Source of the DNA: Bacteroidota bacterium
Lineage (GTDB): Bacteria; Bacteroidota; Bacteroidia; B-17B0; Aurantibacillaceae
Length of the DNA stretch: 59,238 bases
Assembly (NCBI GenBank): GCA_018267475.1
Contig: JAFDYI010000029.1
Coordinates: 1-59,238, forward strand
Direction of reading: 5' to 3'
The position numbers were made by a program, and so were the translations under genes. Positions 17,761-22,244 of the stretch are shown one piece after another. The stretch's first letter is position 1, and each line of letters opens with the position of its first letter. Below the pieces are notes generated by a model. It searched no databases and was not told the DNA's origin. It saw only the letters and a list, made by a program, of their open reading frames with translations.

Positions 17761-19965
17761 TTATTTATACGAAATATATTCTTTTAATTCTTGTAAATTT
17801 TGATTGAATTGCGATATGTTTTTATTGTAAAAATCAACCATAATCAATTCCTCCAGTGTGTATCGTTTGCCATCAATAAAGCCTACAATCCAGGCATCTT
17901 TTTGTCCTTTGGCAATGGCTTTTTGGCGTTGTACTTCGGCTTCTTTTATTCCGTTAAAGTTGCCCTGTGTAAAACGTGTTATTTTGTCGGGATAATCTAC
18001 TATTTCGGGCGCACCAAATTCTTTTAAATGGTCGTATTTATAATTTTCCGGATGGCGGTACGCGGCTATTTGCACTTTAAAAATCATTTTATCGGCGCAT
18101 ATTTTTTCGCCTATGGCTAACAGCTTTCTATACACGTTGATGTCGTTCAAACTTTTTCCTTTTAAGGCTGAAAAATCCAAGGTTTTAAAGTCATCGCAAG
18201 GCGATTTAGCACTTGCTACAGTTGCCGTAGGTGTTGTTGTTGGGTTTTGTGCCGCTTCTAAATCTTTATAGGCTTTCATGATGCGGTTCATCGTAGCCGA
18301 ATCGGGCGCTACGGCCATCGTATCCAGTTGCGCCAGTAACTCGTTTAAACTTTTGATGTTGTGTGGGTCTATGTAACCATCTTTTGTGAGGTGAAAGTCT
18401 TTGCGAAGCTCTACAAACTTAGTTAGCTTGGCTACGTTTAGCACATCGGTAGCTTCGCCAAAATCTTTGGTACGCACATGAAAAATATATTCTTCGCCCG
18501 GGCTAAGAGCTACTAAGTATTTTCCTGTTTTTCCATTCGAGGTAAAAGGCCCGATTTTTTCTCCATTGCTTTTTTTCACAATTTCTATTTGTGCGGTTAA
18601 GGGTTGGTCGTTTCCATATATGTAGCCCAGCACCATAGCCAGCACCGGTTTCTCGCTGATGATACCCGGAGATACCGTTAGTATTTCGGCGCTGCCGTTG
18701 CCGCCGTTGCTCATACGGTTTGACGAGAAATAGCCCTTTTGCCCGCTGGCGTTTATTACGTAGTAGCGGTCGTCATCGGTAGTATTAAGGGGGTAGCCCA
18801 TGTTGATGGGGTCTATCCAGTCGTTATCTTTTTTTATGGTATAAAAAATATCGTAGTCGCCAATGCTGTTGTGGCCTTTAGAGCTAAAAAACAAGGTGAT
18901 GCCATCGGGGTGTATAAAAGGCGAGTCTTCATCTTGACTGGTGTTGATGGCGCTGCCCATATTTTTTACGTTTTTCCAGGTTCCGTCTTCGGCTTTTTCG
19001 GCTATGTACAAATCGCGCCCACCAAAGCCTCCGGGGCGTTCGCTGCTAAAGTAAAAGTATTTGCCATCGGCCGTGATGGAGCAAGCCCCTTCGTAATAGT
19101 TGGTGTTGATGTTGCCTTTCATTTTTTCGGCGCTAGTCCATTCTTCACCGTTCAAGTGGCTTTCGTAAATATCGCCGCTGTCTTTTTCGCTGGCGCGATA
19201 TACGTACAACGTTTGTCCATCGGGCGAAAGAGCTAAGGAAGCATCGTTTTGTTTGGTGTTTATAGAGGCAATGCCTTGAGGTTCGCTCCAGGTAGAATCG
19301 GCATTACGGCGCGACATAAACACGTCTTCGTAGTAGGTTCCGTTTTGTGCATCGGGTTTAAAATTTCCGTTCATTAAACCGCCGGTACTTTTGGGCCCAC
19401 GGTAGGTATATATCAACACCGATTCGTCGGTAGAAATAACGGGTGAGTATTCTTGTGCTTCGGTATTTACCGGAGGGCCGATGTTTCTAATATCCGATTG
19501 CAACATGGTTTCCGTAACGTTTTTTCCGTATTCCGAATTTTTTATCAACTTTTCCGCTTCCTCTTTATCTATTTGTGAGGGATTGGTGGCTAAAAATTCT
19601 TTAAATGTTTTTATGGCGTCATCAAAACGGTAGTTGATATGGTACGCTTTTCCTAAATTGAGCAATACCTGCGTTTCTTTAGGTTCCATTTGGCGTACGG
19701 TTTCAAACAAGGTTATAGACTCTTGCTTTTTGTCGGGAAGATGAAAGGTGCACAGGCCTTTTTGAAATTTGTAATACGCGTTAGAGGGATCTCTTTTTTC
19801 CAGTTTATCGTAGGCTTCATAGGCACGCACATAATCTTTTATATCGTCAGACATATAGAACTCCGCTGCATCGTTCAGTTTGTCGGTACTTTCTTTTTTT
19901 GTTTGGGCTTTTGTAATTACCGAAAACAAAAGGGTGCAGATGAGTATAAAAATACTTTTTTTCAT
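17761..19965 (-). CDS. Exported TPR/PD40 beta-propeller protein with SPOR-like C-terminus
   Basis: Envelope protein of 734 aa. Signal peptide 1-20 (ending TKAQ), TPR-like helices about 25-160, a PD40/WD40-like beta-propeller about 170-430 with repeated blades (ALSPDGQTLYVYRASEKDSG, SITADGKYFYFSSERPGGFG, FIHPDGITLFFSSKGHNSIG), a carboxypeptidase-regulatory-like region about 440-530, and a SPOR-like tail about 640-720 (FKVQIAAYR...). The same first three modules occur in PorE-type T9SS proteins, but PorE ends in an OmpA-like peptidoglycan domain; here a SPOR-like fold, also often a glycan binder, takes that place. A structural role at the outer membrane/peptidoglycan is therefore an inference. 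First gene of the operon ending at 14300. Confidence 0.82.
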   Translation of the reverse strand: MKKSIFILICTLLFSVITKAQTKKESTDKLNDAAEFYMSDDIKDYVRAYEAYDKLEKRDPSNAYYKFQKGLCTFHLPDKKQESITLFETVRQMEPKETQVLLNLGKAYHINYRFDDAIKTFKEFLATNPSQIDKEEAEKLIKNSEYGKNVTETMLQSDIRNIGPPVNTEAQEYSPVISTDESVLIYTYRGPKSTGGLMNGNFKPDAQNGTYYEDVFMSRRNADSTWSEPQGIASINTKQNDASLALSPDGQTLYVYRASEKDSGDIYESHLNGEEWTSAEKMKGNINTNYYEGACSITADGKYFYFSSERPGGFGGRDLYIAEKAEDGTWKNVKNMGSAINTSQDEDSPFIHPDGITLFFSSKGHNSIGDYDIFYTIKKDNDWIDPINMGYPLNTTDDDRYYVINASGQKGYFSSNRMSNGGNGSAEILTVSPGIISEKPVLAMVLGYIYGNDQPLTAQIEIVKKSNGEKIGPFTSNGKTGKYLVALSPGEEYIFHVRTKDFGEATDVLNVAKLTKFVELRKDFHLTKDGYIDPHNIKSLNELLAQLDTMAVAPDSATMNRIMKAYKDLEAAQNPTTTPTATVASAKSPCDDFKTLDFSALKGKSLNDINVYRKLLAIGEKICADKMIFKVQIAAYRHPENYKYDHLKEFGAPEIVDYPDKITRFTQGNFNGIKEAEVQRQKAIAKGQKDAWIVGFIDGKRYTLEELIMVDFYNKNISQFNQNLQELKEYISYK

Positions 19966-20355
19966 GCCTATTTTTTAAAAAATTAAACATAGCTAAGTTG
20001 AGGCTAATTTAAAAGCCTTGTACATAGCCATTCCATAAGTTATTTACAGCTTTGTGTTAATCTCTTAAAAAAAGAGAATTTTAGAAAAGAGGCATATCAT
20101 AGAGGTGCTAAGCACTAATGGCAGTTTAGTTATGCAGGGTAATTTCAGTCCTGTAAACCATACCGTAAAAATAAACGCCGCCCTGCCATCGGGCTTGTAC
20201 CTTGTAAAAATAACGCCTGCGGGCGGCAGTACCTACCTGCAAAAAGTAATGATAGAGCGGTAGTGCACCGGTAATCTAAAAAGAGGTATCGCCCTGAATG
20301 ATAGTTGTGTGCAGGAAAAGAAGTAGGTCTTTTTTAATAACTTAAAAAAAGTTCC
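19966..20355. other. 390-base spacer holding a decayed gene
   Basis: No intact gene. The centre (20069-20263, plus strand) encodes the remains of a T9SS sorting domain; the rest shows no ORF or clear terminator. Confidence 0.7.
20069..20263 (+). pseudogene. Orphan T9SS type A sorting-domain remnant
   Basis: Reading frame opened by a stop at 20066-20068 and closed by TAG at 20261-20263. From 20099 it translates to a convincing type A T9SS C-terminal domain: IEVLSTNGSLVMQGNFS, then INAALPSGLYLVKITPAGG, then YLQKVMIER at the end. This matches the IxxxxGxxV, LxxGxYxxxI and KxxxI elements of the sorting domain, including the final lysine-hydrophobic strand. The preceding YPNP-type strand and the whole mature protein are missing and there is no start codon with a ribosome site, so the 5' part of a secreted-protein gene was deleted. 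Confidence 0.8.
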
Positions 20356-21438
20356 TTAGTTTCCTTTAAAAACTTTTACATTATACACATACGATGATAT
20401 GCGTTTTAGTTGTTGGCTGCGAGCGCTTGTTTTCAGGTTGTTTTTTTTGTTTGCCTGCAATCTTGTTTTTAGCGAGTCGTTTTCTATAGAGTTTAAAAGC
20501 TGTATTATGTAGTTAGATTTTATAGCAAAGCCTGTTCCTTCGGCATTGCTGTTTTTACTTTTAATAAGCCCTATTACGTTGCCTTGCTCATCAAACAAAG
20601 GACCGCCGCTATTTCCGGGGTTTATGGGTACGCTTATTTGGTACATGGCCGTATCCGAACTTCCTTTTAGGGAAGATATGCTGCCTTCTCCATACACCAT
20701 ATCTTCGGCCGGGAACCCCATGGTGTACACTTTTTCGCCTATATCTGCCGGGGCGTTTTTAAAGCTGTAAGGCACCGCAAACGATTTGATGTTGCTGTCG
20801 TTTTCTAATTTTAATACGGCTATGTCCAAGCGGGTATCGCTAAATACAATGCCGGCTTTGTAGGAGTTTTTTTGTTCATCAATTACAAAAACCGAGTCGG
20901 CTTTACCTACCATGTGCAGGCTGGTTAAAAAATAACCGTTGTTATTAAGGGCAAAACCGGTACCTTCTATATTGGCGGTTTCAAAAGTTCGCTTTTCGCT
21001 AATGGTTTTAATGCCGTCAATAATTCCTTCTTGCACAGATTTGAGGTGGGTTATTTCTTTAGATAAGTTGGTAATAGATTCTTGATGTTGTTTAATAAGG
21101 TACCCGCCGGAGCTTAACATAGCTATGGTAGCTATTACTGCAAACAGGGCTACGGAGGCGGCTATACCTATGGTTCGTCCGTATTTTTCGTAAAAATTGT
21201 TTTTTGTGTTTAGGTTGCGGGTGTTATATTCTCCGTACTCTTCTTTATAGATGGTTTGTAAGGTGTTTTTTAAACGTTCTTGCTTTTCAAGCTCTTTTAG
21301 CAAGGTAATAAAATTTTTATGTTCTTCAAATTGAGTTTTAAATTCCGTGTCGGTTTCTAAGCGGTGTTCAAATAGTTTTTTATCGGCAGTTGGCAGGCGT
21401 TGATGTAGGTAATCGTCAAATAAATCTATGTTTCTCAT
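20356..21438 (-). CDS. Membrane protein joining an anti-sigma-like N-terminus to a trypsin-like protease
   Basis: Protein of 360 aa. Residues 1-85 are cytoplasmic: FDDYLHQRLPTADKKLFEHR and EFKTQFEEHK near the start look like the N-terminus of Bacteroidota anti-sigma proteins. One transmembrane helix spans about 88-110, then a short coiled coil (about 115-150). Residues 155-315 are a periplasmic S1C/HtrA-like protease with intact triad: His175 (LTSLHMV), Asp205 (TRLDIAVL) and Ser277 (NPGNSGGPL). No PDZ domain follows. The gene starts 13 nt after the stop of an ECF sigma factor gene, so the two form one operon. The likely job is sensing or processing in the envelope and control of that sigma factor; this is inferred from architecture and position. 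Confidence 0.82.
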   Translation of the reverse strand: MRNIDLFDDYLHQRLPTADKKLFEHRLETDTEFKTQFEEHKNFITLLKELEKQERLKNTLQTIYKEEYGEYNTRNLNTKNNFYEKYGRTIGIAASVALFAVIATIAMLSSGGYLIKQHQESITNLSKEITHLKSVQEGIIDGIKTISEKRTFETANIEGTGFALNNNGYFLTSLHMVGKADSVFVIDEQKNSYKAGIVFSDTRLDIAVLKLENDSNIKSFAVPYSFKNAPADIGEKVYTMGFPAEDMVYGEGSISSLKGSSDTAMYQISVPINPGNSGGPLFDEQGNVIGLIKSKNSNAEGTGFAIKSNYIIQLLNSIENDSLKTRLQANKKNNLKTSARSQQLKRISSYVYNVKVFKGN

Positions 21439-21451
21439 GTTCCTTTTTTGT

Positions 21452-22033
21452 TTATGAGGTTTTACCCTCTTTATCCATAAAAAATAATCTCTTTAATCGT
21501 TGCAAGCATTTGTATTTTTGGTTTTTGGCATTGTCTGCATTGGTGTAGCCAAATTTTTCGGCAATTTCATCCATACCCATGCGTAGCATATAAAAATCGG
21601 TCAGTAAGGTTTTGCAGGGTTCGCCCAACTCGTTCATGCTTTCTTGCATTTTTTCAAGGTTTTGCTCTCGTTCTTCGTAGGTATTTACTTCGGCCTGTGT
21701 TTCTACTAAAGCATCGCCTTCATAAAAACGCTCGTCTAAAGTTTGTATTCCTTCTTTTTTGCGAAGTTGTTTGAGCCATAAACGCTTGGATACACTGTAT
21801 AAATAGGTTTGCAGCGCGCAGCTTAATACAAAATGTTGTTTTTGCACACGATGATAAAGAACCAATACACTCTCTTGAAAAACGTCTTTGGCTTCTTGCT
21901 CGGTACCGCTGTTGTTAAGCACCATTCGCAGGGTTTGCGGATAGAACTTTTTGTATATCAATCGGATAACAGCATCATTGCTAATGCGTAACCCTTCTAT
22001 ATACTCGTTATCTGTCAATACAAGCGTAGCCAT
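21452..22033 (-). CDS. ECF-type RNA polymerase sigma factor
   Basis: Sigma-70 family ECF factor of 193 aa from the chosen start. Region 2 is seen in DAVIRLIYKKFYPQTLRMV and EAKDVFQESVLVLYHRVQ; region 4 (helix-turn-helix) in EIAEKFGYTNADNAKNQKYK followed by CLQRLKRLF. A longer reading from 22066 is excluded because its first codons overlap a -7 box (22071-22064); the ATG at 22033 is preceded by AAGAGGAAG, a reasonable ribosome site. It directs RNA polymerase to a specific regulon, likely released by the protease-bearing anti-sigma-like protein encoded 13 nt downstream. Confidence 0.92.
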   Translation of the reverse strand: MATLVLTDNEYIEGLRISNDAVIRLIYKKFYPQTLRMVLNNSGTEQEAKDVFQESVLVLYHRVQKQHFVLSCALQTYLYSVSKRLWLKQLRKKEGIQTLDERFYEGDALVETQAEVNTYEEREQNLEKMQESMNELGEPCKTLLTDFYMLRMGMDEIAEKFGYTNADNAKNQKYKCLQRLKRLFFMDKEGKTS

Positions 22034-22063
22034 AAACGCTTCCTCTTTAATACTACTTAAAGG

Positions 22064-22071
22064 CAAAAGTA
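22064..22071 (-). promoter_or_regulatory. -7 box of the ECF sigma operon
   Basis: TACTTTTG on the minus strand fits the housekeeping TAnnTTTG consensus, 30 nt before the ATG at 22033, and fixes that start. Confidence 0.6.
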
Positions 22072-22244
22072 ACCCATTTTTATGAGTTTTTAATAAAAAA
22101 GCAAGAAATTAGAGCTGTTTATGCCCCAAAAGCGTTTTTTTTAAAAAAATACGCTCTTTATTGGTTGTCTCTTTGTAATATAAACGAAGTTTTTTTGTTG
22201 GTTTATTACGCTCTAAGGGCTCTGTTTGGGCCTGTGAATAAATT

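Follow-up and report, generated by a model that had tools for sequence, protein, structure and literature searches.

A conserved gene pair of Bacteroidota encoding an ECF sigma factor and a putative anti-sigma factor fused to a trypsin-like domain

The two-gene operon and its distribution

The window, that is the whole stretch of 59,238 nucleotides analyzed, carries on its minus strand a gene for an ECF sigma factor of 193 residues (P0002, 21452–22033), followed after an intergenic gap of 13 nt (21439–21451) by a gene for a fusion protein of 360 residues (P0001, 20356–21438), which was delimited from its open reading frame, Pfam matches and an alignment of relatives and combines an anti-sigma-like part with a protease domain. 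The sigma factor contains a Sigma70_r2 region and matches the NCBIfam sigma70-ECF model TIGR02937 with 52.4 bits (cut-off 42.9). Both the coordinates and this match agree with a preliminary description of the DNA, which had reported an ECF sigma gene and, 13 nt further on, a membrane-protease gene, and had given no strand for either. The sigma gene starts at the ATG at 22033 (minus strand). A longer reading frame with a TTG start, reaching to 22066, is unlikely because the –10 element of the promoter (22047–22053) would fall inside it. In many relatives the sigma and fusion genes overlap in an ATGA sequence, which suggests translational coupling, and in two others (L070 and L110) 89–97 nt with apparent inverted repeats lie between them.

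Two features were observed beyond the operon. The minus-strand gene downstream of it (17761–19965) encodes a PorE-like TPR/PD40 protein of the type IX secretion kind that scores below the model cut-off. Between this gene and the operon, on the plus strand, a short startless reading frame (20093–20263) resembles a type IX secretion C-terminal sorting domain and is likely a gene remnant.

Full-length or nearly full-length homologues of the fusion protein were found in 80 of the 87 genomes of the order, and 72 of the 396 genomes sampled from the class contain a homologue at an E-value of 6e-60 or better. The records comprise metagenome-assembled genomes together with Daejeonella, Olivibacter, Mucilaginibacter, Pedobacter and Adhaeribacter, the last three including the cultured species Mucilaginibacter agri, Pedobacter caeni and Adhaeribacter aquaticus. 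No full-length homologue was seen outside the class in the phylum sample, where the matches cover the protease domain only. The preliminary description had held that homologues of the protease occurring mostly without a sigma gene would speak against its reading; this search was run, and the two genes stand together in nearly every locus. More than 130 strong homologous loci were examined, and in all but one (L055) the fusion gene is immediately preceded by the sigma gene in the same orientation. Conversely, among 149 genomes of the class, all sigma matches above 190 bits belong to genomes that also contain the protease, the next matches scoring 165 bits or below. The pairing is therefore far from a chance arrangement.

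Related arrangements were also noted. In other Bacteroidia a sister lineage (L178–L180) comprises secreted proteins in which this protease domain and its C-terminal tail occur without an adjoining sigma gene. Elsewhere in the genome from which the window derives, a paralogous ECF sigma gene of the same type (L189; G000 contig 4, 19248–19724) is followed by a gene whose product spans the membrane once; the two may be a second sigma/anti-sigma pair.

The cytoplasmic domain and the membrane helix

The first 70 residues of the fusion protein (21229–21438, minus strand) form a putative cytoplasmic, helical, anti-sigma-like domain, as judged from NCBIfam matches in relatives and from AF2 models. Among the N-termini of 34 diverse relatives, seven match the anti-sigma family NF052375 (best E 2.9e-5) and six match PRK13920, also an anti-sigma family (best E 2.6e-4); these two outnumber any other family. 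The N-terminus encoded in the window (residues 1–85) gave no significant match to an anti-sigma profile, and a PDB sequence search with it returned only PPAR helices, which were taken as a chance result.

The AF2 prediction for the sigma factor joined to the N-terminus of a same-genus relative (L061) reached a pLDDT of 86.6 and a pTM of 0.79, with values of about 90–96 in the N-terminal helices. The stops were read as glycine to give one joined chain, a modelling device that implies no natural fusion. The solved chains nearest to this model include ECF sigma factors in AlgU-MucA (6in7) and sigmaE-RseA (1or7). Superposition of the modelled sigma domains 2 and 4 on AlgU/sigmaE gave an rmsd of about 12 Å over 150 residues, and the geometry therefore differs from that of RseA-type complexes. 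A mirror-tree comparison yielded r = 0.87 between the sigma factor and the N-terminus and 0.89 for the trypsin domain (partial correlations 0.44 and 0.55); it was discarded as proof of co-variation, since the signal is inseparable from common descent and equally high for the trypsin domain.

The earlier reading of residues 1–85 as anti-sigma-like thus draws some support from the profile matches of relatives, the AF2 model and the RseA-like motif described below, while the stretch of the window itself matches no profile. These observations are consistent with a domain that would bind the sigma factor. It might instead activate the sigma factor, serve as its co-factor or not bind it at all, the pairing then reflecting co-transcription only. 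The N-terminus indeed resembles anti-sigma domains weakly and in some relatives only, but the pTM of the joined chain, the RseA-like membrane motif, an operon that appears autoregulated and the one-to-one co-occurrence of the genes leave this explanation with very little probability, the smallest given to any reading considered here. In one family, the putative anti-sigma domain of three members (L142, L143 and L148) is shorter by about 35 residues at its N-terminus, and these members nonetheless keep the sigma gene, the promoter and the catalytic triad.

A single transmembrane helix follows. The best hydrophobic window spans residues 90–108 (21115–21171, minus strand), within the helix first placed at residues 88–110. 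Its flanks carry net charges of +3 on the N-terminal and 0 on the C-terminal side, and an N-in topology is predicted because of this positive charge. Inside the helix, the sequence IAAS (residues 92–95, 21154–21165, minus strand) aligns with E. coli RseA, which reads MGVAACVSLAVI at the position where the window protein has TIGIAASVALFAVI. The pair Ala93-Ala94 is invariant in all 128 alignment rows, across which most other positions of the helix vary. It is nearly always preceded by Val, Ile, Met or Leu and mostly followed by Ser, so that most relatives have (V/I)AA-S where E. coli RseA has VAA-C. RseP cuts E. coli RseA between Ala108 and Cys109, and the resulting VAA end is a ClpXP degron. 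IAAS is therefore the predicted RseP cut site and ClpXP degron of the fusion protein, and the RseA-like motif makes a regulated-proteolysis (RseP/ClpXP) route to sigma release likely. A gene for RseP is found elsewhere in the genome, above the cut-off of the family. The invariant motif also supports the N-in topology, although the alanine pair could serve helix packing instead of cleavage. A similar logic of XAA motifs, with recognition by ClpXP, has been reported for RsgI proteins (PMC12203970).

The periplasmic protease domain

Residues 155–322 (20473–20976, minus strand) form a trypsin-like domain of the S1C type with the HtrA/DegS fold. The Pfam model Trypsin_2 matches residues 159–291 (E 1.4e-24), and structural alignment with DegS-deltaPDZ (2qf0; VIA-align) gave a Z-score of 20.5 and an rmsd of 2.9 over 170 residues. 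Alignment of relatives places the catalytic residues at His175 (20914–20916), Asp205 (20824–20826) and Ser277 of the GNSGGP motif (20608–20610), all on the minus strand. The three are invariant in 19 aligned relatives, and the triad is intact in the alignment of 130 of 130 distinct homologues, over a domain of about 50% mean identity, and in all 127 distinct sigma/fusion pairs. A strict GNSGGP pattern search had hinted at degenerate triads in distant members; the alignment gave His, Asp and Ser in every one of them. No PDZ domain was found in Pfam or NCBIfam scans of the fusion protein, whose chain stops about 35 residues past the protease domain. Alignments and scans thus bear out the intact triad without a PDZ domain that had been read from the sequence.

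For the first AF2 model, the sigma factor and the protease encoded in the window were joined into a single chain by reading the sigma stop as a four-letter step (TAAA = G). Where a PDZ domain would stand, a conserved tail (residues 334–360, 20359–20439, minus strand) follows the pattern R-x-x-Q-[IL]-K ... V-[FY]-x-V-x-V-[YF]-K and is modelled as a helix plus a strand, with Arg340, Gln343 and Val356 conserved at 90% or more. The periplasmic linker that precedes the protease domain (residues 117–145, 21004–21090, minus strand) is a possible short coiled coil, modelled as a helix with pLDDT below 50 in places. It is the weakest-conserved part of the protein (28% mean identity), and no invariant P1 residue or cut site is seen in it among relatives. 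The proposal that the coiled coil acts as sensor gains little from these values, and the C-terminal tail is the better conserved candidate for a control element.

Two other S1C matches occur in the genome, one a DegP type with two PDZ domains and the other a secreted copy lacking a normal triad; a separate DegS-like gene was not apparent. The secreted copy (L002:1498-2802, G000 contig 16, minus strand) is a paralogue of the protease domain with a C-terminal tail of the same type, in which the His and Ser positions are changed.

Because a tether of about 40 residues or less joins it to the membrane helix, the active site would lie at the position where site-1 cleavage takes place. HtrA domains frequently depend on a further domain for activation, and besides its C-terminal tail the fusion protein has no candidate for one. 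Self-cleavage is proposed here from the architecture and the conservation of the triad, and the poorly conserved linker without an invariant P1 residue counts against it. The same lack of an invariant cut site would suit a protein in which the anti-sigma function is real and the protease serves in envelope quality control, like DegP or MucD, its amount being set by the feedback loop while another protease makes the site-1 cut as in RseA/DegS. An HtrA fold with 130 intact triads would fit any substrate, and HtrA proteases are encoded as separate genes in the sigma operons of Pseudomonas (algU-mucA-mucB-mucC-mucD) and Mycobacterium (sigE-rseA-htrA). Such a division of labor is nevertheless rather unlikely, given the tether, which places the active site at the site-1 position, and the absence of a separate DegS-like gene that would stand out in the genome.

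The closest precedent for the fusion protein is RsgI9 of Clostridium thermocellum (PDB 7sjy), which likewise combines an anti-sigma part (putative in the window protein), one membrane helix with an XAA motif and an extracytoplasmic S1C domain. It differs in being an RsgI-type protein of a Gram-positive organism, an orphan without a sigma gene whose partner class is SigI, and in having an NTF2 domain and, as a distinct unit, a periplasmic domain that cleaves itself. No RsgI model was among the Pfam and NCBIfam matches of the window proteins, and the partner here is an ECF sigma factor. The S1C ectodomain of RsgI9 is protease-like and reported to bind cellulose or polysaccharide (PMC12203970; PDB 7sjy), which raises the question whether the domain in the window could likewise be a ligand-binding sensor and not a protease. 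This is highly improbable: a pure binding domain would have no need of the His, Asp and Ser that are invariant in 130 homologues, and the triad is gone from the secreted relative encoded in this genome, so that loss is possible in this lineage.

With RseA-DegS-RseP of E. coli and MucA-AlgW-MucP of Pseudomonas the system of the window shares an ECF sigma factor, a single-span anti-sigma factor (putative here) with a VAA/IAA motif, a protease of the DegS fold and an RseP gene in the genome. In those systems, in contrast, site-1 cleavage is carried out by a distinct protein with a PDZ domain, RseA-DegS and MucA-AlgW being the known separate-gene versions. Self-cleaving anti-sigma factors are known from the RsgI and FecR/FoxR types, where self-cleavage precedes RseP; there the periplasmic domain is cut by a reaction intrinsic to it and no protease domain is present, whereas for the window protein self-cleavage is a proposal. 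No FecR domain was matched in the fusion protein by Pfam or NCBIfam. Also within the Bacteroidota, the Dma1/Dma2 proteins of Bacteroides, which belong to an anti-sigma class particular to this phylum and pair with Das1/Das2 (ECF21), have an N-terminal sigma-binding part, a membrane helix, a large extracytoplasmic domain and an adjacent ECF sigma gene, but their C-terminal domain is a beta-barrel on a long tether and not trypsin-like (PMC13088901). In the literature searched, no description of an ECF anti-sigma factor fused to a trypsin-like domain was found, and an earlier mention may exist. To call the system undescribed, as had been done at first, is too strong a statement when an S1C anti-sigma factor (RsgI9; PMC12203970) and self-cleaving anti-sigma factors are already known.

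Promoter, lipoprotein genes and a proposed switch

Just 5' of the ATG at 22033 stands a perfect copy of an ECF-type promoter consensus, GGTTACNTTT-N11-GTATTAA (22047–22074, minus strand), with the –35 element GGTTACTTTT at 22074–22065, a spacer and the –10 element GTATTAA at 22053–22047. It was recognized by conservation, both in an alignment of the genus and in more distant relatives. At up to two mismatches the chance value for the motif in the window is 0.41; the copy of the window is the sole perfect one in the whole genome. The motif precedes the sigma gene in 61 of 69 upstream regions from the same family and in 41 of 58 from other families, where shuffled sequences led to an expectation of about 0.05 in all. 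It is present in 64 of 87 family genomes, mostly once each and at the sigma operon, with one or two perfect copies in most relatives; a reversed control gave one match in 87 genomes. Across the class, exact matches to a somewhat relaxed version of the motif occur in 8 of 22 genomes with the sigma factor versus 1 of 127 without it (Fisher p 5e-7). Transcription may thus be expected to start from these sites, as far as can be judged from sequence.

Among 28 further copies of the motif that were looked at in the family, 23 stand before lipoprotein genes, namely 12 of the DUF4349 type, eight of the Cbp1 family with a coiled coil and three small ones; DUF4349-type and Cbp1-family genes with the motif were noted in other genomes of the family at L262–L269 and L276–L290. 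At the operon itself, 64 of 126 distinct loci, in several families, contain a divergent gene for a small Ala- and Thr-rich lipoprotein of 56–93 residues, preceded by a correctly placed motif of its own. Tandem arrays of two or three such genes occur in some genomes, with a separate motif for every gene. Small Ala/Thr-rich lipoprotein loci with the sigma promoter include L270, L271 and L304–L306. The divergently encoded lipoproteins show similarity to the PG1828 family, with E-values as low as 8e-13; the score of 48.9 bits narrowly misses the curated cut-off of 50 bits. For this family, no link to a sigma factor was found in the literature searched.

In the genome of the window the divergent neighbour of the operon is a topoisomerase IV/gyrase A-type gene. 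The small lipoprotein gene lies instead on contig 36 of the genome (G000), with the motif 25 nt 5' of its ATG (C36:9995-10022, one mismatch). It is the only one of nine one-mismatch copies that fits; the other eight are intragenic or lack a suitable downstream gene. The Cbp1 lipoprotein gene of this genome was considered as a target and set aside, there being no motif upstream of it.

The gene pairing, the triad, the membrane motif, the promoter and its association with lipoprotein genes rest on solid evidence. Together they lend somewhat better than even support to an anti-sigma factor with a built-in site-1 protease that regulates its own operon and envelope lipoproteins. In the resting state, residues 1–85 would keep the ECF sigma factor bound at the inner membrane. 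Once switched on, the periplasmic HtrA-like domain would cut the linker of 40 residues, either in its own chain or in a neighbouring one, after which RseP would cleave the invariant (I/V)AA-S motif in the membrane helix and ClpXP would degrade the freed fragment and release the sigma factor, these last two steps being modelled on RseA. The sigma factor would then transcribe from GGTTACNTTT-N11-GTATTAA promoters its own operon and the genes for small or coiled-coil envelope lipoproteins. Expression of the operon would restore the inhibitor and thereby exert negative feedback, the new fusion protein resetting the switch. The lipoproteins, more speculatively, might be the effectors, or else feedback ligands or substrates of the protease.

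In its fullest form the proposal, which we hold tentatively and at slightly less than even confidence, describes a two-gene envelope switch in which the anti-sigma factor itself performs the site-1 cleavage. Signal detection, the first cut and sigma release would then require one chain plus RseP and ClpXP, and in several families of Bacteroidota the switch would use a promoter of its own to govern a narrow regulon of lipoprotein genes.

Bacteroidota encode many ECF sigma factors, only about 6% of which have a recognizable class I anti-sigma domain adjacent (PMC7406223). The present locus offers a widespread, usually single-copy case in which a putative inhibitor, a protease, a promoter and predicted targets are found together, and its link to small lipoproteins suggests a role in lipoprotein or outer-membrane homeostasis. 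If self-cleavage is true, no separate site-1 protease is needed to initiate regulated intramembrane proteolysis, and these proteins would offer a compact model of HtrA switching without a PDZ domain.
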